Shown here: positions 821-55,899 of the stretch, piece by piece
Layout: the number at the start of each line of letters is the position of its first letter
Position numbering within the stretch: the first letter of the stretch is position 1
Assembly: GCA_021234155.1 (NCBI GenBank)
Contig: JAJEKV010000072.1
Span: forward strand, 1,468,526 to 1,532,525
Source of the DNA: Isoetes taiwanensis
Lineage: Eukaryota > Streptophyta > Lycopodiopsida > Isoetales > Isoetaceae
DNA length: 64,000 nt
Direction: 5' to 3'
Program-made: the position numbers and the translations under genes
The notes under the pieces: generated by a model
What the model saw: the letters and a program-made list of their open reading frames with translations, nothing else
Told to the model about the DNA's origin: nothing
Databases searched by the model: none

Positions 821-2349
821 CGTATCACATCAGCAGCACAACCGGTAATCAGTAGCATTGGAGTGCGTCAGGGTTGCCCCCTCTCCCCCACACTCTTTGG
901 CCTATACATTGATCGGTTGGAAGATTGGCTCTCCAGCATGGAGGCGGCGCACATCTCATGCATCACATAATCGGCCAGAACTCATATATCTACCGACGAT
1001 GTCAACCTCATGGCCTCATACCTATAAGGAGGACATGCAAATAATAATTGATGCTTTTGACACTTTTGCCACTTCACCGGGCATGAGTGAACTTGGCCAA
1101 AACTAGGGTCTTCGCTTAGTTGCATCATTCCGTCGGCCAAGGCTTCCCACCTTCACTTACGGGGGCAAGAGGTAGAGGCGGCTCCAACCTACAAGTACTT
1201 GGGCATTGAGTTCTCAACTACCACCCATTGGGATGCGGCTATCAGGCTGCGGTCACGGCTGGTTGGAAAGCACTATATGCCATGCGAAAATGGCCACAAG
1301 GCGAGAGTTGTGCGCTGGGGCCACCATCACATTTGTTTGGGGCCTTGGTTGAGCGGTGGGTCCTTTGTATGGGGCAGCGGTGTGGGGTCGGGGTCATCTC
1401 CCTCAACACATGGAATGACCTCGCAAAGGTGCAGAAGGCTTTCTTGGCACGAGCCTTTGGGGGTGAAGTCCACGGGGCCCGCACAGCATCCTACTCGTGA
1501 GACGGGCTTTCTACCCTCCAACGGGCTGCATTGGAACGCCATATCGCTTACTTCAAAAGGTGGTCGCTATGGCGCGATACACGCTGTCCCCATCTTGCTT
1601 TACATGCCGATGGGTCCCCAACGCCTCAAATCTGGCGGGAAAGACAAGCAAGCTCGATGGTTCTCACGGGCGTCGCATTAAAAACAAACGCGCGCCCGTC
1701 GGGACAAAGAAAGATCGCGAGGCACTTAAACAATACCTAGATGCAACTTTCCTTCCAAAGCTCACGGGATGCTGAGGCTCGACGCGACGTTAAAGTCGGG
1801 CACACCATCGCCAGCGACAAGTCAATCCCTAGGCTCACAAGAGGCCCGCGACCAAGATTTGTACACCCAAATGCCCATGAAGAAGCTTGAACTTATAGCT
1901 TCCATTGAACGGGTGCACATAAGCCTCGCATTGAAACGTGGCGTTGGGCTCGGGAAGCACGAGCAAAGGCTTTGGCTGTTGCCACCAGGCGTGATTGAGG
2001 ATGAGTGTCATACCCTCCGATCGCAAGCATTTGCCCATATCCGAGAGAGAGGTATGTTCGACTACTAGTGCCTGGCCAGGCCGTTGCATCGCTTATTGAC
2101 TACGGCGCCGGTGGGTTTCTTTGGGGTCATACCTCAAGAGGTTATGGATGCACTGACGCGTTTTTGTGTCCTACGGACGGTCTTGAACTGTCCTATGCAA
2201 TTGTACAGATTGTGCGGCATGCTTATTCGCTAAGGTTTTCCCTCGAAAACCCTTCGTATGGGGTTTTTAATCCCGCCGCGAATATGCTTGCTGCCTAGCT
2301 TTTTGTTTGGGTCCCATAGGCCAATTGGTCTCCGTGGACGCTAAAAACT

Positions 2350-2376
2350 TATTCTATTCTATTCTATTCTATTCTT
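2350..2376 (+). repeat. (TTCTA)n pentanucleotide tail of LINE copy A
   Basis: About five TATTC units lie directly after GGTCTCCGTGGACGCTAAAA. The same sequence-plus-tail arrangement occurs at 30.62-30.69 kb and 62.37-62.44 kb, which marks it as the LINE 3' terminus rather than a chance microsatellite. Confidence 0.85.
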
Positions 2377-2497
2377 TTGAGTAAACCCTTGAGCCAATAG
2401 TTTGGCCTTAAATTTCTTGCTTCCATCTGCATTAGTTTCGCTTTAAACGACCATTTACTCCTAATATATTATGACGTATGGGATGTTTTATCAGATC

Positions 2498-3140
2498 CTA
2501 AGTTTCAGTTTGGTGAAAAGAGTCTAGCTCTTCTTGCATTGCTCCTAGCCACGTATCTTTATTTCCATAATATAAGGCTTCTTCAAAAGTCTTAGGTATG
2601 ACTAAATCATCCATAATTGCCATAATCTTGTCATTGAATTCACCTAGATGCTCAAGCCTTTTGCTTCTGCCCATTTTAGTTCTTCCATATTCATCAATGT
2701 CTACTTTTGCATCCTCAAGTAACATCTCGACCTGAGTTTTCCTTCTTTCATTTGCATGTGGTGTATCAGGCTACTCATCATCTGTGTTCATTTCCAACAT
2801 CATATTCATCTATCCCATCATTTGAATCTAGATCCACATGAGTTTTGACTTTCTTTTCTATTGCAATAGTTGGCTTTATGTCTTTCTTTGTTTTATTGCA
2901 GTAGTTTGATGAGGAAATTGCTTCATCAAACACAACATCTCTGCTTATTACAATCTTCCTTGTTTGAGGCACAAATATTTTATATCCTTTTGAATCCTCA
3001 TCATAGCCAACCAAGAATCCAATCTCTGCCTTGTTGTCAAGCTTTTGTCTGAGTTCAGAGGGCACATGTGCATATGCCAGATATCCATAAACTTTATATG
3101 TTCTAAAATCTAAACCTCTTTTTGAATTTATCTGAAGCAC
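2498..3140 (-). pseudogene. Ty1/copia polyprotein relic (integrase C-terminal part and start of RT)
   Basis: On the minus strand 3140-2778 reads a copia-type integrase tail with the conserved GFLVGYDEDSKGYKIF and KIVISRDVVFDE motifs. 2725-2498 continues with FEEALYYGNKDTWLGAMQEE, the usual start of the copia reverse-transcriptase domain. The two parts are separated by a frameshift and stops. No LTRs were found next to it, so this is a small internal fragment. Confidence 0.85.
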
Positions 3141-4300
3141 TTAGGGCACATTATCTTAATGACAGTGGGTAGTTTGGTCTGCACTATGATGGTCATTTTG
3201 AGTGCTTCCTCCTAGAGATAATTAAGGACATGCAAGCATGAGATGAAGTCGTCATTGCTATATTTCTAGGACAGTCTTTTTCTTTGGCTAATGATGGTCA
3301 AGAATGAGCAAGGTGAAATTTTGGAGTTTTGAAGGAAAAAGTTTTCAGAAGCTTTAGGCACACAGACCATAAGGAACGCGGATTCAAGCTCCTCAGAATA
3401 TTCACATATGGTCCTATGACAAAGATTTAAGAGGCAAAAGTCGTTTGGTTCAAGGCACATTTAGATTGTACCATCTGTTAGGCCACTGTTCTTGATCATG
3501 GATTTGATAGCATCCATAACAGATCCTATTATTTCTCTATTCCAATCTCAAGGCAAGCAAGGCCGATTGGGACAAAGACGAATGGAAGCAAGGCAAAAGG
3601 CAAGGAAAGCAACGGCATCTGAAGCTTCTAGAAAGCATGAAACCGGATCGCTACAGCCACAGAACTGGAAATGCAAGAAGCACATGGGGAGAGGAGAGAA
3701 GGAATTTTGGCTATTTTCTAATTTCCTAGACCGTTGATTAAAAAATATGTAGATCCAATGGCTTAGGTTCATTTTCATCCAGGTGGCAGTCAACGTGGAT
3801 AGACTATAATTGCATGAAATGTTGTAGCAGGGGTTAGGCAAGCCTGCTAATAAGATGTAAGAAAATATTTTAGTAGTAAAAGCATATAACATGCAGAAGT
3901 ATAGAATGTTTATAGCAGCAAGATGGTTGACGTAACTGGCTATACAAATTTAACTATATAATATAAGAAATTAATATTGGATGTTAAGCTACCACTAACA
4001 TAGCATTATTTAACAAGGTGCTGCGCACAAAGGGTTGCCCTCCAATGGTGCAAGAGTGTGTTTTCATGTTCCTTGTTTGGTCATTTCGTTTGGTCTTTTT
4101 TTCCGTTTTTTGTGTCCATCCTTATTTATGATAGGTGCATTCATTTTTTGTTGTTATGTTTTATTTTGTTTATGGATTGCACACGGACTGAGAAAAGACA
4201 TGCGAAGCTCATTGCGTATGCCAGTTGGGATTGGCGTAATCATGTGAGGCCGCGATAATCCACAACCAATCACAAAGAACTATCCTTCTTGAAAACAAAG
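3141..4300. other. Interval without a recognisable gene
   Basis: Mixed sequence between the copia and gypsy relics. Short open frames exist on both strands, but none resembles a family I know. It may contain decayed upstream copia sequence (gag or protease side), which I could not establish. Confidence 0.4.
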
Positions 4301-4310
4301 ACCAATTCTG

Positions 4311-5613
4311 TTAGCGACAAGCCATAGATAGGGCCAAATAGCGAGGTTGTCCCTGGCTGAAGATCAATGGGACATTATAGGGACACTGCTCCAGAAGCTT
4401 ACTGGCTTTGACCTTATCAAAAACATCACCAAAATCCTTGTACTTATCAGGAAGGACAGGAGCAGACATTTCCGAAGCAGAGCTAGTCGAAGGATGAACT
4501 TGGATTGCAAATGCTGAACTGGGATCTTGCCTACCAGATCTGATAAACTTGTGAAGAGAGATCTTCGAGATACAAAGCTGAGGGAAAAGAGCCTCGAAGC
4601 GAGGAGCAAGAAACGTAAGCGAGAGAGCAGGAACATGAGCGTAAATAAGACAACCTGGAATAGAAACTAGACTAGAACCGGAGATCGAACAAGAACCGAG
4701 TGGGGACACCATCTAGAATATATCGAATCGGAGACATGAACCGGAGAGCAGACAAGAGCGAATCGGGGACGCGGAGCGTAACAAGAATAGCAAGGATGTA
4801 ATTAGGAGTCCACGACACCGACGGATGAAGTAGATATTGGCATAGAGGCCCCGACTTGCGATGAAACTGAACTAGAGCTCGAGCCAAGAAACCGAAAAGG
4901 ATCTAGTATGCCAATCAATCTATGGGTTATGTAGCCGAGCTGGGCAGGCCCTGCACTACTAAGCATGTGGGCTAGCGATGAGATTGAAGGAAATGCTACA
5001 AGAAGCTTCCTCGAACAAAAGCGTGAAGAGGTGCAAGATGCGATACGGATCGCTACCGAAGATATCTCATACCCATCCATCACATTAACAGAGCTAGGAT
5101 GCTCGACCCTGCTTTTAGGAATGGCGTGCTTAGTAGCGAACATACTGTCCATGAAGCAGGCGTTTGCACCACAATCAAGTTGCGCCAGCGCCTCCATCCT
5201 CCCAACCTCCGACTCCAATGAAATAGAGATAAAAATTTCTTTACTGACCTTGTCCGAGGGAGTAAAACCTTGTCACATGTGGAGGAAGTTGGGGGAATGT
5301 CAGGCAGCCGTCTGGAGATTCCTACTACAGGACTCAAACGGTTTGATCACTTAATAGGACATCCACTTGCAACATGGCCAACCCCCTCCACGATAGAGGC
5401 AGAGATTAGCTTCTCTTCGGCATTGCTTCTCAGCTGCAGACAAGGCCCTCGAACCACACCATCAATTTGTATAGGAACTGGGCCAACTGATTTCGGAGAC
5501 GTGGGCAGTACAAAAACTGTTGTGATCATGGGAGCTTGTGGAAGTAAAGAAACATGCTGAATTCGTCTTTCTTGCCTACGCTCCAAAAAAACAGTTATCA
5601 CAACGAACCGCAA
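4311..5613 (-). pseudogene. Ty3/gypsy polyprotein relic (protease to start of RT)
   Basis: Minus-strand blocks match the gypsy order. An aspartic-protease-like piece around 5190-5080 has ALAQLDCGANACFMD, with DCGA in place of the usual DSGA. A linker follows. A pre-RT segment at about 4460-4350 has LPDKYKDFGDVFDKVKAS, the usual gypsy sequence just before the RT palm. The piece upstream (5613-5340) may be gag tail. Several frameshifts and stops make it inactive. No LTR or tRNA primer site was found at its ends. Confidence 0.75.
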
Positions 5614-5835
5614 ACTCTATAGCTTCATCTAAGGTTCTGGGATCCTCCATAGTCAGCAACATATCCTTTATATCCTCGTGTAGCCCTCAAAAACCGGTCA
5701 AGATCCAAGATCTTCCGTGTCAGGTCTATGGCAATCTGTCGGAACTCAGAAGCATAAACTGAAGCCGAACGAGAACATTACCTGAGGCCCTACATATGAG
5801 GTAGATGTGAGGCAATGTCTTCTATAAATGTAACG

Positions 5836-5900
5836 CATTTGGCAAAGGTGCTCGACTCCCAACTAGAAAATTGTAAGTTCAAATCTTGCTCCGTGCAACT
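5836..5900 (+). repeat. Possible tRNA-derived (SINE-like) fragment
   Basis: TTGGCAAAGGTG resembles an internal A box. GTAAGTTCAAATCTTGC forms a complete T-arm (5-bp stem with TTCAAAT loop) and would be a B box about 38 nt later. No acceptor or anticodon stem closes, so it is not a tRNA gene. A SINE remnant is the best guess. Confidence 0.3.
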
Positions 5901-5916
5901 ACTGTTTTGCATTGGT

Positions 5917-5974
5917 GTGACGACCATATACGAGTATAATGCTCGTATGATACGAATACCCATATGGTCGTCAC
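5917..5974. repeat. 58-bp hairpin with perfect 13-bp arms
   Basis: GTGACGACCATAT at 5917-5929 is the exact inverse complement of 5962-5974. The 32-nt interior holds a second small inverted repeat (ACGAG/CTCGT). It could be a tiny MITE or an RNA hairpin. Confidence 0.75.
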
Positions 5975-6045
5975 AGGTACTTTATGCTAGGATAATAATG
6001 ATGTTATTTGTTATTTATGTCATGGCAGCTCCTAGTTCAAACGAC

Positions 6046-6229
6046 GCCTTAAGAAGTTGCAAGTTTTGTTGGCATCATGGCTCTTGGGATTAAATAGTTT
6101 ACTAGATGATTAATCTACAAAGATCATTACGGTTTACAATGCCTTAAGAAGTTGCAAGTTTTGCTGGCATCATGGCTCTTGGGATTAAATAGTTTGCTCG
6201 ATGATTAATCTACAAAGATCATTACAATT
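6046..6229. repeat. 95-bp tandem duplication
   Basis: Unit 1 (6046-6140) and unit 2 (from 6141) both start GCCTTAAGAAGTTGCAAG and are nearly identical through AATCTACAAAGATCATTAC. More diverged pieces of the same unit occur around 6290-6350. Confidence 0.85.
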
Positions 6230-7305
6230 GACACATTGTTTTCAGGTTGTTCAAGTTAGTATAAAAATTCTTGTTGATTGTAATTTATATCATGGCGGCT
6301 TCTAGTTCAAACACCGCCTTATGATGACGTAAACTTTTCATGGTAATATCAAGCTTATGGTTGATAAGTATTTGGCCATCCATCATTGTTAATAAGACGA
6401 AAGGATAATGCGTGATATTCTCTTCCTAGAGATTTAATAGTATGGATCCGTGTATGATATTTATATAATGGACATTTCTATTGCAAGATATCTTAACGAG
6501 TTGTTGCATAGGTTGTTTCTTGTCCTAAGGAATGCAACGTGATGGTTTGCCCCTCCCGCTCTTCTTTTTCTAAAAAAAAAAAGCCCCCAAAACACCAAAA
6601 AAATTTTTTTTTTTTTTTTTTTTTTTTTGAAGGATGAAACTAAATAATATTAATATAGAGTAAGTACAAGAAGAGCGATACTAGGGTACCCCTGCCCAAC
6701 CATGAGCGAGCACCCACACATCACATATACCTACCTACGACTCATGGGATAAATCTGCCAATGCTGTCTACAATGAAAAGGGTCCTTTCCCAAACCGCTG
6801 CCTTAAACCTGGTCCTTCCGAGGAGATGCCGGTGCGAGAGATATAATTTGTACCTTAAGCTGGCGGGGATCAAAACCGGCCGCACCTCCTCATTCCGAAA
6901 ACCTTCATCTTGCCGGCTTCCAAATGAGCCACACTAACCCGCCTTACACAAATGGAAGGCTAGACTCTGCGGGTGAGACCACCCAGGAGGATACACTCCC
7001 AACGAACCTGTTGACTGCGGGCGAGGTGTGAAAGTATTTGGACCCATTGCCATGCCGGGCCGGATATCTGGCTAGAGAAACATGCAATGCTCGGGGTCTC
7101 GCACACGAGGCACCACACATAGGACATCTGTCACCGATCCGCTGGATTGATCCATTGCACCCATGTATTTACCCTCGGGGGCCGGTGCACTATCGCCCAT
7201 AGTAAACCCCGAATCTTGGGGCGAGGGTGGATTCCACACCCACCTCCAAATGTTGCCCCGGTCATCTCCACGGCACTGGAGGCTCCACCATCCCAGGGAG
7301 GCGAC

Positions 7306-7686
7306 TCATCTGAATAGCCAAAAGCTCATAGCATGACTTCCGCGAAATTGAGGGGTCAACTTTTGGATGACAACTCCACACCAGCCTGGGGCGCTGGGAT
7401 TGTGGAGTACATTAGCCACCGTGCCCAAATAGCCTGATCCGTTCACGGAAGTGAACTTGTGGCGAAAAAGCTGCCAGGGTGCAAGCTGGCCATCCATATA
7501 CCACTCCCCCACTGTCAGAACGCCATGCTGTGCCCATCTGCGCTGGATCCGCGGATCAACGGATGCAGCCAGCACCTGAGGTGCAGCACCAGGGCCGAGC
7601 GGGATCCACCATGGCGATGCGTCTAACTGAATACTACCGGCGGCGTCGATGGCAAATAGCGGGCGGACCTGCTCCCATGCGCGCAA
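7306..7686 (-). pseudogene. LINE post-RT C-terminal region fragment
   Basis: A 126-codon open stretch downstream (in element sense) of the reverse transcriptase, in the place where plant LINEs carry the region between RT and the zf-RVT zinc-binding domain. Sequence further down (7300-6700) reads like a Trp/Cys-rich zf-RVT remnant, but the cysteines are too eroded to call. Confidence 0.55.
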
Positions 7687-8098
7687 GAGCCCCTTCAGGA
7701 AGGGAGAAGCGTTAGCATATGGCCTGATATCTGCAAATAACGCCCACGGAAGCTGCCACGTGAGACACGGGCCGACTTACGGACACTGTCGAGTCGCGAT
7801 AGCGGCCCGATGCGATAAGACCATGCGGGAGAATCAAAGCGCATTCTCGGGATTGCAAACACGAACTTGGACAATAGGATCTTGCCATGGGCGAGAGGTC
7901 CAAGAAACCGAAGTCCCCGGCGGCTTTGGGGCACACATTTCCACCCGGGCCACCTTGACAACCGCCCTCTCCTCATTACCGCCCCACACAAAGTTACGAA
8001 CCATAGAGGAAATTTCCCGAACCTTGCTCTCCGGTGCCAGGACAATGGATGCCATATAAATATGCATGGAGCACAAAACGGACTTCGCCACCGTGACC

Positions 8099-9383
8099 CT
8101 ACCAGCCATGGAAAGCTTCCCCCCCTTCCACCCGGTTAAGGTGCAGCTTTGCGGCCCACAGAATGTCCTCCCAAATGCCTGCCGCCGAAATGTCGATGCC
8201 AAACGGGATCCCCAAAAGCTTAGAACATGTGCCCTGCGGCTGCGTCCGCCAAGGAAATTGGGATACGACCACGGGCATGGGATCTGCCGCCGGCCATAAC
8301 GCCGAGCACTTCGACCAATTCATAAGACAGCCCGAGGCGAGGGAGAATGCATCCAGTAACTCTTTCGTGTTCAACAAATTCCTTTCATCCGCCTGTAGGA
8401 AAAGGAAAGAGTCATCAGCATACTGACTCCCAATCTGCTGTGACCCGTCTGCCATCCTCAATCCCTCCACAATACCCGCCTGCACAGCCGAAATCAGGAA
8501 CTGCGACAGGGCCTCTGCCACAATGGTGAATAGGAAGGGCGCCAGCGGGCATCCCTGGCGAACTCCGCGTCCCACACGAAAGACCGGCGACGACTCACCA
8601 TGACAAAGGACAGTGGCCCTGGCCGATGTTAAGAGCTTCAGAGTCACTTCAGTAAAGCTCTCCCCACACCCAAAGGCGAGCATCATCCTCTTCAAAAAGT
8701 CCCACCGAACACTGTCATAGGCCTTTGCAAAATCCAGCTTCAAGTACACTATCCGCTGACCTGTTTTGCGTGCCCAGTGAATGCCCTCAAATGCCGCCGC
8801 GACATTGTTGAGAATATACCGCACGGAATGAAGCGGTGCATGGTATGGGGCAAATCGCCTCCTTCAAGACCACCTGCAACCTAAGCGAGAGGGCCTTTGC
8901 GATAATCTTATATACCGCCGAAAGAAGCGTGATCGGACGCCAATCCGAGATGGCGGAGGGCTCCTTCACCTTCGGTATCAAGGAGATGCAGCCAGTGTTG
9001 AGTCTATAATCCAACGCCTCAGCCTGGAGCAGATCTTGATAAGTGCAAAGCGACTCCCCACCCAATCCCAATATTCTGGAAGAACTCCAGGAATCGGGTC
9101 GGCCCGGGCACTTATGAGGAGCCAGGGCGCGGCAAGCCTCCTCGAGCTCCTGCCTTGTAAACGGACGCTGTAATACCTGCCTTCTATCCGCCGGCACCTT
9201 ACAAGACACCTTGCTGAGCACAATCTCCTCCATCACTTCAGAGAAGGGATATCTCTTCTCCTGAAAGAACTGAGAGAAATGACAGAAAGTAGCCTGTTTA
9301 ATATCGTTCGGCGAATGGAGAATGCGGCCATCGAGGCAATTCCAAGGGCGACATAGAGGCCGCGTACTTCTTACGGCGTGCAT
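8099..9383 (-). pseudogene. LINE reverse transcriptase, frameshifted
   Basis: RNA-templated DNA polymerase of the L1-type element. The upstream half (9383-8787) has LISLIPKVKEPS-like and SDWRPITLLSAVYKIIAKAL motifs. The downstream half (8824-8099) has LKLDFAKAYDSVRW (motif A, catalytic D), GVRQGCPLAPFLF, and QYADDSFLFLQ with the catalytic YADD. A frameshift near 8800 splits them, and one further break lies in the upstream part. Catalytic residues remain but the frame is lost, so it cannot make an active enzyme. Confidence 0.9.
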
Positions 9384-9599
9384 ACGAAGAACATTAGGGA
9401 ATTGGTGTCCCCTTCAGTAGCCAAGTGAGTCCGGCCTTCACCCTGCGCTGCGCCCAACCTTCTTGGATTAGATCCCTTTGCAATGTAGCGGTAACTCCTT
9501 CTCCCGCACCCCCATCGGGCCGTTTGGGACACGAGGGCTTCCAATTAGCGATACCATGCCTCTAACTCCTCCCGGCTCGGCGTATCCTCCGGCTTCCCC

Positions 9600-27915: not shown

Positions 27916-28168
27916 GCGAGTAACACCGTGGCTACGGTGCGAAAGTAACACGTCCATATTTTATGTTATACACAATTTCGCATCGTGGCTACAGTGCGGA
28001 AACAACACTTCCTTATTTTTATGATATCCACAATTTTGCGCCGTAGCTACGGTGCGAAAACAACACTTCCATATTTTATGTTATACACAATTTCGCACCG
28101 TGCCTGCGGTGCGAAAACAACACTTCCTTATTTTATGATATCCACAATTTCACACCGTAGCTACTTTA
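27916..28168. repeat. Satellite of about 57-bp units, each carrying a perfect hairpin
   Basis: About 4.4 units begin at 27,916, 27,973, 28,031, 28,088 and 28,146. Each has a core such as CGCACCGTAGCTACGGTGCG that folds into a hairpin, followed by AAACAACACTTCC and an AT spacer. Spacers alternate between TATGTTATACA and ATGATATCCA, so the array is a higher-order dimer of about 115 bp. A single related core, CGCACCGTGGCTACG, lies at about 25,904. Confidence 0.85.
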
Positions 28169-45890: not shown

Positions 45891-46700
45891 TTGCTAACTT
45901 TGTTGTTTTGCAGGGTTGCTTAACCCCATGCACACTTTGGTGCAATTTTAGCTATGCCATGTGTCATGCCACATCAGCTTAATTCCATCTCAACCGTTAG
46001 ATCTAATTTATGAATCCATAGCTAGGAAAAAAAGAAAATCTATGGAAAATCCAGGTAATTCTTTCAGCAGGTCGATGCCGTTCTTGGCCAACATCTCGGG
46101 TCCCTAATCATTCTGACCCACGCAGCTCGCCTTTGAATCCTTTTAGTCTGGCCTGGCAGAGGCCGTCTTCCATCAAATCGGCCCTTTTGGGCCTGGTTCT
46201 GACCATTCTAGGCCAGATTCAAGCAGGTATGGCGCGATCTCAAGGCGCCGATTCCGGCAGCCAAAGTTTCAAATCTGGCTTGTTTGGCCTCCTAATCCCC
46301 CAAACCGGCCATGCTAAGCCAATTTTGGCCCTTTTCCATGCCATTCCAGCCGCTTCCGATCAATTCGAGAAGTTTGCCATGATCCAGCCTCCATCTGTGT
46401 CAATCCTGCATGGCAGATTCCTCCCTTGATGTCGTGTGAATTCCTTCTCATGCATACCTCTGGATTAATTCCAAATCCTTTCATATACTCTTCCACCATC
46501 CCTTCTTATAGGTGGTTCTCTATTTCCCAGGCCATGCCATTCATATGCGGCTAAAATCTAATCTATTCATCCGATTCCATAACTTTAAAGACCTTTTTAT
46601 TATTCCACCTCTGGGCTTAATCGGAATCATTCCATCACACTATAGTATCTCCATGTATTAGCACATGCAATTCAAAACTCTAAATCCCAGTTTAGACTAC
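45891..46700. other. Interval with no gene seen
   Basis: Moderately GC-rich at 46,100-46,440 (repeated GGCC-containing words) but no supported coding region. Could include a terminus of the 46.7-55.6 kb element; no terminal inverted repeat could be established. Confidence 0.35.
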
Positions 46701-46710
46701 TAAGCATGAA

Positions 46711-49700
46711 TTAATTAATTAGAGAAATTTGGAATTCTCGTTTAGCATGAAATAGGTTCGTGGTTAGCCATATAGTGCAGAAACTACTAGCAACTGAGTA
46801 AAAGTTGGTGTTTTTTAGTACACTCTTCTCATTCAGTGCACTTAATTTTTGAAAAGTGGGCTCGAGGGCTTCAATACCTTTTTCCGTCGCTTCCAGCAAG
46901 CGCTTTGTTTCTTGCATTCTCTCCTCGTAGGATTTAGCATCGAGGTTATCCAAAATGGTATTTGCTTAGGAGCCTTGCTGTGTGGAGATAGACGAAGCTC
47001 CAGCTCAGGTTGCACAGGTACTACACGAACATCACTCCTGTTAATGCACATATGACTAATATAGTACTGATATTCTTTCACCCTTCGTTTGCTCTCCCAA
47101 CCCATTTCTTCACACGAACCTAAAGACAGGTGGCCACCTCCCTGAATTTGCTTCTGACTGTACAAGCAATTGGGCAAATTCACAGAGCGCGTGATAATAA
47201 CCAAGTGATAAACTTTGGCAGTAGTCATGGTAGCTATCCTTGTAAATAGGTCTGTGTATTTCTTGCAATCCCATACCTTGTTCATCCCTCGGATGTCAAT
47301 AAATATCAATGTGGCATTCTCTGACACTGGGAGGAAGTAGGGATGCCATCCTTTGTCACTGCTATGACAATATTTTTCTTTTCTTTTCTTTTTCTAGCCT
47401 CTTCCGGCTTTTTAGAATATTTTGATTGGCTCCAGAAAAGGCTACAGGTAGGTTACCTAGTGTATGATCCTTGTTATAGTTACTTCACGCATCAGACGTA
47501 TAAGATTCGATATATCAAGTATTCTGTTAGGTCAAATCGGGGAAAAGCCCGAAGCAATTCATTCCTCGAAGCTATCGAAATCCTTTTGCAGCAAATTTGT
47601 GGCATAAGATAAAATTTACGCCTCATAAAAAGTTAGGGTTCATGTCGGTTGCCCATTGTTTGCAATCAAATCTCCGCTATACCACGACCGCACCTTTAAA
47701 TACGCCTTGCCTTCTATAATCTCATCGAAATTTGTGACACCTCGCATTCGACATACCTCGTAGCAACCGGAGCCGTGTCTTGTTAAAGAAGTCTTTGGAT
47801 GGCTTGTCCGGAAACTCACCATGGTCACATCGAGAAAACTACGGTTTCACCCACATCCCGGCAACTTCCATTAACTTTTGAAAACCTTCTCATCCATAAA
47901 GATGAATTGTTTTTCATCTTTAAGCTCCTCGCACTTTCAAAGTGGTGGTTGCAATTACATGGAAATCCGCAGGTTGCAAAGGTCATCAAGATCGTCAGCG
48001 ATGTTGGCGAGTAGAAAATGAATAAATACCTTCCAAGCCGAACTCAGAGCAGTTCCTATCGGCCCTTGTGGAGGACGAAACCATAAGCCTTTGCTGATGA
48101 CGGTTGTGTTGCAGTTTTTCAATCAGTGGCTCTCTGTAGACGGTGTTTGCAATTACTTCGTTGCATTGAATACTCAACTCTATATATTCCTTGTCTGTAA
48201 GATTTCCGTTGAGCACTCTCGATCTTCTTCTAGCATATACTTTAGCAAATTCTAGTTGCTGCTCCAACTGGCCGACGACCGAACAAAGGAGTTGTGCCGC
48301 AAGAAAAATCGTGGGTTGCCAGAAATAATGTAAAATTTCTTGCCCTTTAAATCCTCTGGATTGCTCCATGTCACCCTCCTCCTGAAAAATAGACAACCAT
48401 CAAGTCAAATCTAAACAACGAGTGTCCAAAAGATAAAGAATCAGTTACCTGGTAATAGGGTCAAATGGCACGACGTCAGCAGGTGTGAGGACCTCTGTTG
48501 GGTATGTCTTGAAGCTTTTAACCAGAGTTTGAACATGGTCATTTGATCGCATTCGGTGTGTCAGGTTTGCTGGTGCAGGTTCACAATCAAAAATAGAAAT
48601 CTTGGTAAACCAATTAACCCCTAAGGGGTAAAACCGTTTAAACTGTTCAAGCTTTTGAGTGGTTTGCTCTGCCATCTTGCGTTCCTCTTCCGGATTGAAC
48701 TTCAACTCGACTGGAATGGCAGGTGGGTGTGGCCATGTCAACAACTTAGTAGAAGAGGCTTCCGTAACAGAAGGGGGGGTTTGAGAACTGCTGGGCTGCG
48801 GGCTATCGTCAGTGTTCAGATTTCTAAGGTTAATTTTGAAAGTAGTAAGTTTTTTTGGAATAAATCCACCAGATGTAGTGCTATCTGGGGCCTTTAAAGC
48901 AAGAGGAAGAGTAGGGTTAATAATACCGGAGGGGTTTATCGTGGATTGTGGTTCTTCAACAATTGTTTTTGATGCTGAAGGGTCTCCCAAAGTAGCAATT
49001 GGCTTCACACTTCTTTTCTTGGCCACGTCTCTTAGCCAATTGGTGTCCATCACCGAGGGCATTTTCTCGTCCCGAACTGCTTTCAAAGCACTGCTCGGAG
49101 GCTTCTTGTCTGTGGACAAACCATTTCTGTATGCCGAGAACCCTATCAAGATGTCTCTGTTTCCCTTTATACCTGACAAAGAGAGAGATTCATAAGATGG
49201 CAACACCCAGCCATAACCCTTATCTGATGTTGGAACGTTTTCCCCGTGGTCGGGCTTGTTCATTTTTCTTTGGTCATCATAGATGGGTCATAATTGCGCC
49301 ATTTCAGAATGTACTCCAGGAACTGCAATTGGTGTGTGTCCTCGATGCTGCATATGATAGCATCTTGCACATTGTTCTTCGTGCCTTCCCACATTGCCAC
49401 CACTATGCCAACTTGTTCAACGCCCTCGTGTTTCTTTCCGGGCGCAGAACAGCACAAGTCCTTTTTTGCCGCCATTTAATGTGTGGTATTGCTTGTGCAA
49501 TCTCTATACACCATTTGCGTTCATTAGAAGGGGTTATAATACGGATGGGTTCGACATCCGGTCCACGAAACAGAGCAAGGGCTGTAAATAAAAGCCTGTG
49601 GTGAGTGCCTGATAGGCTGCATAATGTTGTACAACGAAAAGTATAAACTACTCAAGAGAACTGCGACCGCGATCCTTCCAAGCAATTATAATAGTACTCC

Positions 49701-49966
49701 ACACTATCACGGCCGCGATGTTGTGTAGCAGCTAAGCAGGGCAAGAAAAGAAAACCTATGCTCAAAGAAGCGGTCGTGAGTTGTTAGGTGGCGCTAAGCA
49801 AGGCAAGAAAAGAAAATTTATGTTTAGCAAGATCACGGGCCGCGATCTTGCTGAGGAGCTATAGCAATCAAAACATTATAAAATCTAATAAGCAAGATCG
49901 CGGCGGCGATCTTGCTGAGCTGAAATGTTAGGATTTACCTTCTCTGAGGGAGTCTTTAGGTGCCAT
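46711..49966 (-). pseudogene. Element gene 1: protein with a possible ParB/Srx-like domain, frame-disrupted
   Basis: Exon 1 is 49966-49939 (MAPKDSLREG), with donor GTAAAT. Exon 2 starts at 49581 after ACAG with matching phase and reads ALALFRGPDVEPIRIITPSN; a frameshift follows near 49,400 and another near 49,265. The best stretch (49263-48445) runs through a Ser/Pro-rich linker to NDHVQTLVKSFKTYPTEVLT, then an intron (donor GTAACT, acceptor CAG at about 48,380). It continues as a basic RRVTWSNPEDLKGKKFYIIS plus GNPRF, then NGNLTDKEYIELSIQCNEVI. The order L..S.....dvvpfdp...yiisGn.R recalls ParB/sulfiredoxin-like nuclease folds; this is inference. A last block (47327-46711) reads FIDIRGMNKVWDCKKYTDLF and a Glu-rich coiled end. 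Divergent partner of the gene at 51.1-54.6 kb. Confidence 0.5.
49661..49919. repeat. Five GC-palindromes in intron 1 of element gene 1
   Basis: Sites at 49661-49677, 49706-49719, 49767-49780, 49826-49852 and 49891-49916, all variants of ATCGCGGCCGCGAT. The last two have extended arms: AGCAAGATC..GATCTTGCT and AGCAAGATCGC..GCGATCTTGCT. Sites 2-5 sit in tandem units of about 62 bp that also share GCTAAGCA-GGCAAGAAAAGAAAA. They could be protein-binding sites, since they are evenly spaced and palindromic. Confidence 0.8.
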
Positions 49967-51050
49967 GGGATCGCGGGCGCCGGCTGAATACGAAATTCCG
50001 GTCGTTTTAGGGAGGTTCTCCAAGCCGCTGCAAGCTTGAAGGCGCTAGGCGCTGAAGAAATCGCCGAAAAAAAAAAACTCTCTCGAGATGATATGAGATT
50101 GATGGCCGCGGAATTTATATAGAACGCCGCCGCTGAAAGTAAATGCCCGCCGAAAGCATAATGATGCGTGGATTGTCACCCATAATGACGCCGTGACGTA
50201 TGGGCGAGATAATTACACGCCGGCCAGACATCACCGGCCGGCCGGCTATATTGATTACCGGCCATAAATGCGTCCGTGCGAAAATACCCTACGCAAAAAG
50301 CACGCAATCCGTACAAGACCTCTTTATCGACTTGGACGTCCGCGTTCAAATTTCTCCCGTACAGTCAGTTCATTAAATGAACCTGACATATTAAGCAGCC
50401 ATAAAGGCCAGAAAAAGAAACTAGATTACGGATGGACTGTGACAGGAAAATTTGAATTCGGCAACAAACATTTAGAGTGAAAGCGGGAAAAGCCAATTCA
50501 AATTTGTTTGTTTTGCAAGATCTCGGAGACGCTCGAAGCCGCTTCTAAGCCAAGTTCTCCAAAGGTTTTCTTTGCGAGATCCCGCATCAATTGAAGGCGC
50601 TGACAAGGGCACTGATAATCCGCTTGCACTGCGCCACTATACATTTCGATTTCTTCCACTGCATCGAATTTAGTCTTTCAGGCGAGGTAAAAGGGCTATC
50701 CTGATGCATATCTCTCAGTGAAGTGAACTCAAAGTTAATGTTCCAATGAATTTCAATGATAACTACAACCTGTTAAGAATCTGCTGTTAGTTCATGATCA
50801 ATAAGACATAATTCTTCCTTAAAGAATGTTTCCTTCTGTGGTTCTCGGCATTGAATTGATTCTATCAAACATCGCTATGTATTATATGGATTGATAAGAT
50901 ACCGCCGATATTTTGGATTAGAATATTTAAAAATAGATGTTCTCAAAGAAAACTGTGTGCACTCTCTGGCGTGTTTATTATACAATGTTCACGTGTTTCA
51001 AATATATGCTTTCTTTCTCCTTGTGGATGATACAAAACATGTTTTTATGG
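49967..51050. promoter_or_regulatory. Divergent intergenic region between the two element genes
   Basis: About 1.1 kb with no supported gene, lying between two start regions that point away from each other, so it should hold both promoters. CG-rich near 49,970-50,260 (many GCCGGC words), AT-rich after. A TATATAGAA word at about 50,117-50,125 is placed suitably for the leftward gene. No palindromes of the flanking type occur inside. Confidence 0.4.
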
Positions 51051-51167
51051 CATCGCAGCCTTTCCGACAGGTCATTGGCTACAAAGGAGGCGGTGACGCC
51101 ACCATTTCGGACTGTGAGGTAAGAGTAATGCTTTAGTGATGGAAGTCAATGCTTTAACTTTCTTTCG

Positions 51168-51463
51168 ACAAGATCGCGGTCGCGATATCTTCAACCATCT
51201 ACACTTGCTATTTAAGAACTCCGATATATTTATAAGTATGAGTCGAAACCACATGCTAATCTCGACATGTGTTTTCCACATGAGTTCTTAACTAAACAGC
51301 TAGTGTGAATGCTTATAAAAGCGCTTGACGCGTTTTGCCAATGTTTCGATAAGATCGCGGTGGCGAAAGTCCTTAGCATTTTTTTATTTCCCAGTTGTCG
51401 TTTTGTAGTAGAACTTTTTAAACAGAGTTCTATTTACTTACGAACATCGCGGCCGCGATATTC
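51168..51463. repeat. Three GC-palindromes upstream of the main ORF of element gene 2
   Basis: Sites at 51168-51190 (AAGATCGCGGTCGCGATATC), 51351-51368 and 51446-51459 (perfect ATCGCGGCCGCGAT). They fall between a donor-like GAGGTAAGAG (51,116) and an acceptor-like TTTGTAG (51,475-51,481), so they may lie in intron 1, mirroring the left array. Confidence 0.75.
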
Positions 51464-51482
51464 ACGATCTCTTGTTTGTAGG

Positions 51483-54400
51483 ATGGCGGATGTAATCTCG
51501 CTTTATCTGCTGGGGAAAAAGGTGGCAGAAGGAAGAGTCCACAATTTTGAGCGCCATCACAATTCGATTGTCCCGGAGGGTATGGTGGTTGTTTCGATTG
51601 TGAATGTTTTGGATGGACAGTTGCCACTACCAATTCCCGAACTGGAAATAGAAAAAATCGGTGAAGCTGTGGGGAGTTTTGTGTTGTGGTACAAGAAGGA
51701 CATTGCTGGTCAGCTTGTGAGAGAGGAAGAAGTTTGCACGCCACCAGGACAGATTAAACGCATAAACTGGCAGGTCGGAGGCAATGAGAGATTAGCCAAT
51801 AATGAGACGAATCATGTGCAAGGGCTTTCTAGAGATGAGTTAATTGAGAAGGCATGCACACTCATGCATGAATGCTGCCACATGGCTTACGGGTATGGTG
51901 TTATCATTTTTGCCGATCCAAACCATGTTGTTGCTGACGTGAAGTTAGGGGAAGGCTCGATAGCTGCTACTATCATGAGCCTATTTCCAATGCCCGAAAA
52001 GATCTCTATGCGCTACCAAGCCTGTGCAGAAATGCCCCAACTGCATGACCTTGTAAGATGGCCCATAGCCTTCGTGCTCGTTGATAACATTCCAATTTCT
52101 ACTCTCGTGGTTGCAGTGAAGGAGAAGGATGTGGAGAATGAACCTTACTCCATTAGACCCGAAATTGGTATCACAAAAAAGAGACCTTACCGCATGGTCA
52201 ATCGGAGACCCAGGACACGTCCAGCACAGACCAAATGTGAAAAAACTAGTGCTGAGGCTATTCTAGACTTCAGGTCATCACTGTGCTGCATGAAAAGATG
52301 CTGTGCAAATTTTACATCCAAGGAGATAGCTTGCATGAAAACCCTTTTATCGAACATGAAGTCCCCTGGAGCGACAACCTTTGCATATAACATGCTAGAT
52401 CTTTGCTCGGAAAATGAGGTAGTCCGCAACCCGATGTTGAATAACAAACAGTGTGCGTGAAAGCATGGCATAAAGCCTATGGGCATACCCATTTCCACTT
52501 TTACAAGTGGAAGAAGCTCTTCAATGATGGCCACGTAATTGCCGAAAGCACGGAAATAGTGGTTCTAAGAAGCCAAGGTCTCATACTTTGGTCGGCAATG
52601 CCGCGGCTATCTATGTTCATAGATGAAAATGCAGAGACGATGCCACACCAAAATTTCGAAAATTACGAAAGCGAGGGTAGCGCACAAAATGTTAAGAGGC
52701 TACCTTAGGCCTTGACTAAGAAGGATATACACCAAGAAGTAGATATTACCGTTACAGAGATGACAGGCAAAGCATATTTCTCCTTCGTCCTTTTCTCATG
52801 CGCTTGGAAAGAGAATCATTCAGAGGTAGCAATAGCTAAGAGGATAGTATTTTCTAAGTGTAACACCTGTATTGTCATAAAGGAAAAGCTTGCTAAGACC
52901 AGATATCCAAATGAAAGAAGGGTACTTGCAATGGAGAGAAAGTCACATATGACGGCCCAGATTTCATGTAGGAGCCTTTACTGGTCCTGGAGAGCTTTGT
53001 CTCGTAGACCTTCTGAGCATGCTTTAACCATTATACATGATAAGATGGATCAGAATAAGACCATAGTCCCTCGTCTAGAAAAGCTAGCAAAGTCTGTATG
53101 GAGGGGTGAACACTGAAGGTGAGTGTTACAGGTGCTCTCATGCACGGCCATGGTATAGGTGCCTTGGACCACTTCTCACTGGATCTCTGGCCTGATGATT
53201 CTAATTTTCATGTGGGATCCTTGAATCATACCTTGAAGACACTGGAGAATAAATCTGAGGATAATTTTGGGGCCATTTGAGAGATACAGATCGTCCTGAA
53301 AGCAGCTGGGGTGGAGTAGTTTTAAACACAGATGCCCTTAGGACAAAAATGGTAAATGGCAGTAGAAATGATTTTATGCCTCCTAACAAGGGCCCCATGG
53401 TACCAAACAAGTTGCCTAGGAGGCTTTACTTGCAGCTAGATAATTGCTCAGGTCAAAATAAGAATAGATATCTTTTCTCTTACTTGTCATACTTGGTTTA
53501 GTTAGGTGTCTTTGATCAAGTGCAGCTGGGATTCATGATGGTTGGACACACCCACGATGACATAGATGCCCTCTTTGGAAACTACTCTACTCTAATGAGA
53601 AGATCAGATGCATTGACTATTCCAGAGCTTATGCAACTCTTCAGGCAGTGTAGTTCAAAGTCTCCTTCACCTTACCTTGTGTCAGAGGTTCCTAATTGGA
53701 AGGAATTCGTGAAAGGTTTTATCCCTGAAAAGAAGGACCGTTTATGTGGTCACTTGGAACCTCTACTCTTCAAGTTCTGCATGAAGGATGGATGGCCACT
53801 AATGTTCTACAAGATGAGGCCAGGGCATAGGGAGTGGCTCCCTGAAAAGGGAATCAGAATGTGGAAGGAGGATGCCCAAGGTTTACCTATGATTCCAAGA
53901 GGGTCACCTAAGGTCGTGCAGCCTTGAAAGATATAGGTGCATTGAGAGCTTCTATTGCCAAGTACATGATGCACTGGGCAGCTATTTCTAGAGCTGGCGA
54001 TAACTCATGGTCCAACACATATATGAATGAAGTTATTGACTACTGGTCCACCTTGCTGCGAGTGCTTGGGGACGTGCAGCCCGGTAGAGCTGTCATTCAG
54101 GATTTCTGGCCCAGCACCAGGCAAAGTGCATTGGAAGAACCCGAAAATGTGTTTGTGGATGAGCACATTGAAGCATCTCATTACGTAGGGCCTTTCTCGG
54201 GTAGGCCAAAGAACCCAGTTGAAATATTCGACCACTACCAAGATGTCAAGAAAGGAATGCTCTTGCTAATCAGGCCACATGATAACTGCCCGACGTGGAT
54301 GGCTTTTGCCGAAGAGGACCCAATAGAGGACCCTAATCTCCCACATTACGAAGAGGTGTTTGTCTCTTGGTTTGAGCCTGTTGCCAGAAAGGGAACCTCA

Positions 54401-54559
54401 TATGCAATGCAGTATAGGGATTGCTGGAGCAAGAATTGGAGACCCAATCCTAATGACCCGCCACGCTACCAACATTTGAAAACAATAGACTATGGTTGGG
54501 CCGTAGAGACCAGGCCGTTGTCAGTGGTGATCCCCAGTAGTGTGGGGGCTCAGTTGTAA
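51483..54559 (+). pseudogene. Element gene 2: DUF8039/DUF7869-type transposase-like protein, frame-disrupted
   Basis: Long open block 51483-52460 (326 codons). Its start (MADVISLYLLGKKVAEGRVH, then EIEKIGEAVGSFVLWYKKDI) resembles the DUF8039 module of plant transposase-like proteins. Then, in another frame, 52451-53116 with VCVKAWHKAYGHTHFHFYKW (the helix-turn-helix-like CxxAF..FY pattern of DUF7869 proteins) and one TAG at 52706. 53116-53280 continues in a third frame. 53277-53927 has LYLQLDNCSGQNKNRYLFSY, a TAG at 53499, and LGFMMVGHTHDDIDALFGNY; the two Asp-containing motifs are those of an RNase-H-like DUF7869 core. 53924-54559 is the C-terminal part. I infer a cut-and-paste-type enzyme. 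At least three frameshifts and two stops inactivate it. Confidence 0.7.
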
Positions 54560-54742
54560 GAATTAGTGGCTAAAGAAGCTAACGACGATGATGAGAACTC
54601 TTGAGGTATGCAATGCTCTTTTACATAATTACTATATCATATATAACATGCAAGTTACAATAGACTAGTTATTATTCATTAAGCTCTGCATTTTTCATCT
54701 CAACACAAGAGCTCTTACACTATACAATGCTAAACAGGTGAT

Positions 54743-54877
54743 TCATTCATCATCAACAGCTGTAGTAGTGATCCCTGATATCTCATAGCTATTGCGCTCA
54801 GGAAGCCAGATCAGATGGATCATAATTGAGCACTTGATCGCCTCGATATGGTGAACTGATGAAGGCGAAAAATCCAT
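54743..54877 (-). CDS. Small ORF of 44 codons, shortened paralogue of the ORF at 55.34-55.58 kb
   Basis: Encodes a 44-aa protein that begins MDFSPSS and ends HLIWLPERNSYEISG and VDDE. The end aligns with the 80-aa neighbour (VHIYWLPDQEIYELNNNTSF..VDDE) and the start with its HIRSFKC; about 35 residues between are missing. Its 5' flank is also homologous to the neighbour's. Function unknown. Located just past element gene 2 and convergent with it. Confidence 0.5.
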   Translation of the reverse strand: MDFSPSSVHHIEAIKCSIMIHLIWLPERNSYEISGITTTAVDDE

Positions 54878-55340
54878 GGGAGATGAATGAACTTTAGCCC
54901 CGAAGTGAGAAGCTTTTATGGTGAAGTGGAATTATTGAGGTGAATTATTGGGGTGGACTTTACCGCCATTATTGCACGTGTATAAGACTGTTGTATACAT
55001 ACAAGTATAATACATCTTTCGTATGGATATGTGTATGCTTTTAAAACATGTTTTGTGGATTTTAATATGGTAGAAGTTTTTGTGCTTGAGTAATTCAGGT
55101 GTGATTGAAAATAGGGACTGCTTGCAGATATACTGGAAGTCGAAGAGCACACCCTTACACTACACTCAGGTATGATACATCAAACAATATTCATTGTGCT
55201 ATTACATCCTTACATAGTTTATAGGTGCTCATACCATTATTATATCATAAACAAATACAGTAGTCATCACTGATAACATTGATTGTAATACATAGTTCAT
55301 AGGTACTCATGTCATTATTATATCCTTAGCAGATACAGAT

Positions 55341-55583
55341 TCACTCATCATCAACACCAAAGCTCGTGTTGTTATTCAGCTCATAGATCTCCTGATCAGG
55401 AAGCCAGTAAATGTGGACCACAACACGAGTGAGCTTCTTGCAAGCACTAGCAGGACCATCAGCTTTAGATTGGAGCCATGGATCAAGATTAATACCATTT
55501 CTAGCGCATTCGTTCAGATCGTTGTAGCTCAAGTAGCACTTGAAAGATCGGATGTGCTCTGGACGAGGCATTGAGGAAGCCAT
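55341..55583 (-). CDS. Small ORF of 80 codons, product unknown
   Basis: Open from ATG 55583 to a stop at 55341. Acidic C-terminus (VDDE), WLP and Cys residues (SFKCYLS, NECARNG, ACKK). No signal peptide or membrane segment. Together with about 230 bp of upstream DNA it is a tandem duplicate of the region around 54743-54877. It could be an accessory gene of the adjacent mobile element. Expression is not shown. Confidence 0.5.
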   Translation of the reverse strand: MASSMPRPEHIRSFKCYLSYNDLNECARNGINLDPWLQSKADGPASACKKLTRVVVHIYWLPDQEIYELNNNTSFGVDDE

Positions 55584-55899
55584 GGAAGATGAATGACCTC
55601 TACCCCCGAGTCGAGCTATTTTTATAGTGAAGTAAAATTATTGATGTGAATTATTGGTGTAGAATGTAGGGCCATTATTGGGCTTCTACAAGTATCATGT
55701 ACACGTACAAGTATACCACATAATTTGTATGTATATGTGTGTTAATTACCTCATGTTTCTTGGGCTCGAGAACTAGGTGAAAGTATTTGTGCTTGAGCAA
55801 ATTAGGTGTGCTTAAAATTCTCAAAATTGCGTTATTTTCTCCAATTAATGAAATCATGCTTTACTGTAATATTTTGGCAGAAGATTACTTCCTTATCTT

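Follow-up and report, generated by a model that had tools for sequence, protein, structure and literature searches.

The subject of this analysis is a mobile element in the genome of the lycophyte Isoetes taiwanensis (1.658 Gb in 1110 contigs), located at positions 46702-55861 of a 64,000-nucleotide stretch of contig JAJEKV010000072.1 (C1081 in our numbering), which is referred to below as the window. It is a decayed copy belonging to a large and abundant group of terminal-inverted-repeat (TIR) DNA transposons. It carries two divergently oriented, decayed genes, a left gene on the minus strand (~46953-49582) and a right gene on the plus strand (~51483-54601), the latter broken by an in-frame TAG at 53499-53501 and by frame changes. 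By sequence comparison, the left protein combines a putative ParB/Srx-like domain with a beta-class DNA methyltransferase domain that is clear in distant relatives, and the right protein belongs to the DUF7869 family and is a probable transposase. A preliminary description based on the letters of the DNA alone had proposed a decayed element with two such divergent genes between 46700 and 55840, limits that proved almost exact; the methyltransferase domain was overlooked there.

Ends and copies of the element

In blastn comparisons, the similarity of near copies to the window ceases at ~46694-46704 and ~55861. Between these points the element begins with AAGCATGAATTAATTAATTAGAG and ends with CTCCAATTAATGAAATCATGCTT, a 23-bp inverted repeat (46702-46724 on the plus strand, 55839-55861 on the minus strand) with 20 of 23 positions matching, as is typical of TIR DNA transposons, and it is flanked on each side by the tetranucleotide TACT (46698-46701 and 55862-55865). 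Both ends were read in 13 elements, comprising the window, the copies on C1025 and C930, and 10 of 13 further candidate end pairs, and perfect target site duplications (TSDs) of a fixed length of 4 bp were found in 12 of them, the sole exception being C1067:7194810-7205299. The duplications (TACT, AACT, GAAA, ATAT, GTAA, ATTC, AACT, ACAA, GTAT, TAGC, AAAA and CATA) are rich in A+T and follow no one fixed sequence, and the ends lie ~8-17 kb apart. The common boundary and target duplication for which the preliminary description had suggested searching in other copies are thus in place.

The group is abundant. A probe from the intergenic region (50000-51000) gave at least 41 genome matches at 80-91% identity, leaving aside the self-match and a short second piece, when the best 40 of 320 first-look candidates were scored, and a right-end probe gave at least 42 matches at 87-98% identity, the window and two second pieces excepted, when the best 40 of 1631 candidates were scored; both counts are lower bounds. 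Eight near copies were compared with the window, namely five separate copies and three tandem copies in a stretch of C1054. Relative to the other copies, the window element has lost ~0.8-0.95 kb at 46821/46822 and ~0.43 kb at 46954-46961. The C1054 stretch (C1054:9550000-9580000, loci L001-L003) consists of three units that follow one another at ~9.3 kb and all hold a truncated element (corresponding to window 46954-51314 plus 46821-46961). It is a tandem duplication of a broken copy, and the three truncations probably share one event. At locus L023 (positions 1459-9418), a distant DUF7869 element differs in its inverted repeat, which is GCATTTGAAACGGGAG, and its left end carries a stem-loop; among the distant-family ends inspected (L022, L023 and L024), those of L023 have a shared inverted repeat.

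Products of the divergent genes

The right gene opens with a frame beginning MADVISLYLLGKK (51483-52460, within an open frame of 51309-52460; the start codon is our reading), followed by a segment with the first conserved aspartate (IIHDKMDQNKT, 52793-53110, 83% to L018), the DUF7869 core with the in-frame TAG (LYLQLDN ... GHTHDDID, 53409-53924, 86% to L018) and a C-terminal part (53864-54601, 65% to L018). The profile PF25273 (DUF7869) matches it twice, at E values of 5e-10 and 4e-21, so that of the earlier label DUF8039/DUF7869 the second half holds, and no DUF8039 match was listed. The best 150 DUF7869 candidates of this genome that were scored all exceed the cut-off, and the family had matches in none of 14 control genomes. 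Between families, three aspartates are conserved, which lie in (I/H)D.MDQ, LQLDN and GHTHDxID. A DDD/E enzyme would be expected to show such a trio, and the DUF7869 protein is a probable transposase of putative chemistry. No named transposase family appeared among the Pfam matches of the scanned right-gene frames or in an NCBIfam scan of the right-gene relative in L022. Target duplications measure 3 bp in CACTA, 8 bp in hAT, 3 bp in PIF/Harbinger and 8-10 bp in MULE elements. All four superfamilies were considered and rejected on the basis of the 4-bp TSD and the absence of their Pfam families from the scanned right-gene frames, as anticipated by the suggestion that this is not a standard plant transposon plan.

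The left gene is read from right to left. Its N-terminal part (49239-49582, by tblastn to L018) is followed by the longest open exon, of 280 aa (48445-49287), which contains the opening portion of the ParB-like region (SNDHVQTLVKSF) and has 138 genome matches, at 59-94% identity apart from the match to itself. The second half of this region (47995-48399, ...CNEVIANTVYREPLIEKL) is broken in frame, its counterpart in L016 having FYIISGNHS, and the C-terminal part (46953-47936, 40% to L018 by tblastn) is methyltransferase-like, with DIRG at motif IV. Motif I was not found by the motif scan in the window copy, in or adjoining the deletion at 46954-46961.

The nature of the left protein becomes clearer in distant relatives. 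Three loci chosen for long frames and lacking any blastn match to the window (L022-L024) carry a divergent left gene too, cut short in L022. The C-terminal part of the L024 protein matches N6_N4_Mtase (PF01555) at an E value of 5.4e-15, a family that, as expected, also has matches in 11 of 14 control genomes, and an eight-piece methyltransferase profile finds the solved adenine methyltransferases MboIIA (1.3e-10), RsrI (1.4e-10) and CcrM (3.7e-8). All ten distant loci in which the region was alignable (L023 and L024, plus eight from a set of ten) read D[IL]PY at motif IV, including four that were missed by the pattern scan and read DLPY on alignment; L022 and L047 provided no aligned stretch, and in L066 stop codons stand immediately ahead of the motif. 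Motif I reads FSGSGT in eight distant-family loci, so that with both motifs and the PF01555 match these families have the features of an amino-methyltransferase. Among the ten window-type loci in which it was located, motif IV is DIRG in eight (the window included) and DMRS in two, and motif I, where detected, is FSAGT or FSGGT. The catalytic D-x-P-Y is thus missing from the window's own family, and its methyltransferase, judged from the motifs, is probably catalytically dead.

In the ParB part, the first half in distant families reads LKDRIR ... YVLGGNHSFKARRQL ... THNADNEYKLKMSF. Its hhalign comparison with eight plasmid ParB-family proteins yielded P 9.4e-5 (probability 59%), pairing GGNHS with GGNTR and DNEYKLKMSF with ENEVRGDLSF, and controls yielded P 0.89 (reversed ParB), 0.46 and 0.48. 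Window-type and distant left genes are collinear at two places, the ParB region (P 0.0018) and the motif I region (P 1.7e-4). Searches of phage, plasmid, viral-contig and prokaryote-genome data brought up no close relative of the ParB part in bacteria or phages: the ParB-region profile found no relative in the prokaryote genomes, and phage and plasmid records gave matches solely at E values of 0.6 or more, three of the five plasmid records being annotated as ParB.

Gene pairing, selection and palindrome arrays

Both genes are present in four of the eight near copies (C907, C1025, C1033 and C930) and, in divergent orientation, in all seven further loci picked for left-gene or right-end matches (L014 and L016-L021), five of which (L017-L021) form a second family whose coding DNA is merely 64-70% identical to the window. 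Across the genome, the best 150 DUF7869 matches and the best 150 PF01555 matches (of 1444 candidates) form 24 pairs within 15 kb, with ~0.4 expected by chance; 22 of these are divergent, and the spacing is 4.9-6.2 kb in 17 of the 22. Random draws gave a similar picture: five of six loci drawn from the 128 methyltransferase matches outside divergent pairs carry ParB, methyltransferase and a divergent right gene, and two of three loci drawn from the 126 unpaired DUF7869 matches carry ParB and methyltransferase, the third having the first residues of the ParB gene only.

Exons of both genes have dN/dS ratios (nonsynonymous to synonymous substitution rates), or pN/pS ratios (the corresponding proportions of differences) where synonymous sites are saturated, of 0.03-0.39 over 11 comparisons, a set from which L023/L051 was excluded (an out-of-frame slice with 21% identity and a ratio of 0.72). 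Both genes are under purifying selection. For the window-type methyltransferase exon with its lost motif IV, pN/pS is 0.31, and for one distant pair with D[IL]PY and FSGSGT, dN/dS is 0.04.

The two genes are preceded by palindrome clusters, one ahead of the left gene (49660-49916, with sites at 49660, 49706, 49826-49852 and 49891-49916) and one ahead of the right gene (51173-51463, with sites at 51173, 51354 and 51442-51463). With up to three mismatches, ATCGCGGCCGCGAT occurs six times in the window compared with 0.67 expected, a count reached in none of 100 shuffles, and all six sites fall within 49660-51459, which bears out the earlier remark that both genes start next to the same kind of palindrome. 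The palindromes are family-specific, with ATCGCGGCCGCGAT in the window kind, GTGTATTCCGGAATACAC, inside palindromes of up to 28 bp, in L023-type families, and GGTATGAATTCATACC and GGTATAAATTTATACC in L024 and L064. Their positions are fixed: of 61 sites in seven L023-type elements, 31 are intergenic, 27 lie in the intron that separates ParB from methyltransferase exons, and 3 are elsewhere. Neighbouring sites, counted up to 140 bp apart, are spaced by 40-43 bp in 45 of 56 L023-type pairs, and by 62-66 bp in 25 and 46 bp in 7 of 39 window-kind pairs. The 54,836 bases of the window that lie outside the element contain neither motif. The exact 24-mer AAAGTGTATTCCGGAATACACTTT has 1474 copies in the genome, its reversed control having none, and in contigs C1-C135 it lies within 1.7 kb of six of the seven methyltransferase matches, among the matches listed. 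Taken from their sequence and placement, the palindromes are putative sites of the left protein.

Other features lie at the right end of the element and elsewhere in the window. At 27923-28164, four 18-bp palindromes like GCACCGTAGCTACGGTGC are spaced by 57-58 bp, in the array style of the element; they have no DUF7869 or ParB match nearby and are not tied to the element genes. An open frame of 254 aa on the minus strand (8099-8863) resembles a reverse transcriptase (QYADDS), as judged by eye only. In other copies of the element, the right gene is followed by two related small minus-strand genes (~71-80 aa; proteins 41% identical), the duplicated tiny frames of the preliminary description, of which small gene a (55344-55583, 80 aa) is retained whole in the window. 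Small gene b, which is longer in other copies, has left a remnant there (54746-54826, minus strand, 41% to gene a). Gene a remains unbroken over all 80 residues in six of ten loci searched, the window included, and its single-sequence structure model, at a mean predicted local distance difference test score (pLDDT) of 51, is too poor for a fold search. The small genes (window 54746-55583, L007, L013, L014 and L017) each adjoin a copy of a ~240-bp repeated stretch, known from secondary blastn matches, whose first copy in the window (54871-55110) is ~74% identical to the partner at 55577-55817.

These features belong largely to a right terminal module (54808-55861), delimited by blastn to second-family loci. 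This terminal ~1 kb was found in four of the five second-family loci, at 93-96% identity in three (L017, L018 and L021) and at 84-91% in the fourth, and synonymous sites of the left gene are saturated between the same two families (pS ~0.8). On these identities, the module must have been exchanged or homogenised between families.

Interpretation and comparison with known systems

Short inverted ends, 4-bp duplications, pairing of the genes, purifying selection and fixed positions of the palindrome arrays are direct observations, and we consider it probable that they reflect a TIR transposon in which a DUF7869 transposase is accompanied by a ParB-methyltransferase protein that is specific to the element, binds its palindromes and serves to regulate or mark it. 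On the whole, the results support the preliminary suggestion that a ParB-like DNA binder accompanies the transposase. The DUF7869 protein would cut at the inverted ends and insert the element with a 4-bp stagger. The left protein would be a sequence-specific DNA-binding factor, its ParB-like part recognising the element's own palindromes beside both promoters and in its own intron. The methyltransferase part would methylate element DNA in the families that keep D[IL]PY and FSGSGT, and in the window family (motif IV DIRG or DMRS) the same fold would bind only. The likely outcome, by analogy with VANC of VANDAL elements, would be control or protection of element expression.

Several results weigh against this interpretation. 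Four of the eight near copies (C1084 and the three C1054 tandem units) are cut and have the left gene only, so that the joint conservation of both genes, foreseen for intact copies in the preliminary description, is seen in diverged families and fails in half of the near copies. In the random draws, L048 keeps the N-terminal part of the right gene only, and L047 is a methyltransferase alone. First-look candidates number 9907 for DUF7869 versus 1444 for the methyltransferase, and therefore some DUF7869 loci may be without a recognisable partner. The early assignment of the left gene as ParB/Srx-like, which is supported in the distant relatives and, indirectly through them, in the window family, does not extend to a direct comparison of the window family with bacterial ParB (P 0.27; reversed control 0.13). 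Named ParB models remain below threshold (TIGR03764 at E 0.0021, and DUF6551 at E 0.0051 in three of six members), and the ParB-region profile has no match among solved structures at E values up to 5. The same holds for the DUF7869 profile, and a single-sequence prediction of the DUF7869 core, with a mean pLDDT of 34, is too poor for a fold search.

Two alternatives deserve to be taken seriously. The element could represent an already catalogued superfamily, most likely Sola or another long-protein one, that captured a ParB-methyltransferase in one host lineage, a reading that we find tenable and somewhat doubtful. The 4-bp duplications are compatible with it, and Repbase lists 23 superfamilies (PMC4455052 and PMC10045372). 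It is at odds with the lack of a named transposase match to the right gene in Pfam and to its L022 relative in NCBIfam, and with the presence of the partner in diverged families, which therefore does not reflect a single recent capture. Alternatively, and with a comparable reservation on our part, the left protein could be an autorepressor or a transposition cofactor of the TnpA-like, end- or operator-binding kind, its methyltransferase fold being a relic with no epigenetic role. The location of palindromes at both promoters would suit such a role, as would the loss of motif IV in each of the ten window-type loci in which it was located (DIRG or DMRS) from an exon that is still constrained (pN/pS 0.31), whereas distant families keep D[IL]PY and FSGSGT, at a dN/dS of 0.04 in one pair.

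An integrated virus or phage-like element, a reading prompted by ParB-methyltransferase proteins being typical of phages and conjugative elements, is very improbable. Fusions of ParB with adenine methylase are on record for bacteria, and phages and conjugative elements contain ParB-like domains (PMC5512222), but the element here has short TIRs, 4-bp TSDs and ~8-17 kb between its ends, the scanned frames contain no further viral-type gene, and neither the ParB part nor the DUF7869 protein has a relative in the viral contigs scanned. The methyltransferase profile found three loci in viral contigs, two of which were inspected and have a methyltransferase frame with no ParB or DUF7869 neighbour by eye. 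That two independent elements became adjacent by nesting, as the near copies retaining only the left half (C1084 and the three C1054 units) might suggest, is scarcely credible, since a single pair of ends encloses both genes, and diverged families repeat the pairing with much the same distance between the genes (4.9-6.2 kb for 17 of the 22 divergent pairs).

Within the preferred reading of a transposase accompanied by a palindrome-binding partner, the second gene and its matching palindromes hint at an element-encoded system for marking its own DNA or escaping silencing. A more specific version, which we regard as unlikely, is that a ParB-type clamp would load on the palindromic, centromere-like arrays, spread across the element and, through the fused methyltransferase, write N6-adenine or N4-cytosine methylation, keeping host silencing off and the transposase expressed, while families would co-evolve their ParB domain and palindrome, some having lost methylation and kept binding. 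The open-licence literature searched contains no description of a ParB-methyltransferase/DUF7869 transposon pairing (Repbase and subscription papers lie outside this search), nothing under the DUF7869 name or the GHTH..D motif strings, only unrelated or prokaryotic conflict-system papers for ParB, methyltransferase and transposon combined, and nothing on the pairing in work on lycophyte, fern or Selaginella transposons and methyltransferases. If the preferred reading is true, an abundant DNA transposon group has an accessory protein of bacterial-type parts, ParB and an amino-methyltransferase, with defined palindromic sites, the large DUF7869 family gains a name and a partner, and there is a second way, unrelated to the first, for a transposon to attain sequence-specific control of the VANC kind. 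It would also allow a direct test of whether selfish DNA writes methylation other than 5-methylcytosine in a eukaryote, the exact palindromes permitting binding and methylation to be tested together.

Among known systems, the Sola superfamily has a 4-bp TSD, as does the element here, the likeness being one of this length. Sola elements are not known to have a ParB-methyltransferase partner. Bacterial ParB-methylases such as Bce_0392 have a ParB-like domain fused to an amino-methyltransferase (PMC5512222), a combination putatively shared by the left protein, which here is encoded by a multi-exon transposon gene in a 1.66-Gb genome, adjoining DUF7869. Retrotransposons of dinoflagellates and charophytes that acquired cytosine methyltransferases are also transposable elements bearing a DNA methyltransferase (PMC5890265), but theirs is of the C5 type and sits in retrotransposons, and the TIR element described here has one with an N6/N4-type fold. 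KolobokP, one of the DNA transposons that bear an accessory gene, encodes a second enzyme besides its transposase, and it differs in that this enzyme is a homing endonuclease and in having long terminal direct repeats (PMC9587614). In layout, the element resembles the Mutator-like VANDAL elements of Arabidopsis, which encode the transposase VANA and the anti-silencing protein VANC. The latter binds short, family-specific motifs that differ between related elements and, as described for VANDAL21, stand in tandem arrays both ahead of the transposase gene and within an intron of the second gene (PMC5735166). Family-specific arrays in both places are also found here, with the differences that the motifs are palindromic, the partner combines a ParB-like with a methyltransferase domain and the target duplications measure 4 bp; the likeness is one of layout, and palindrome binding by the left protein is putative.

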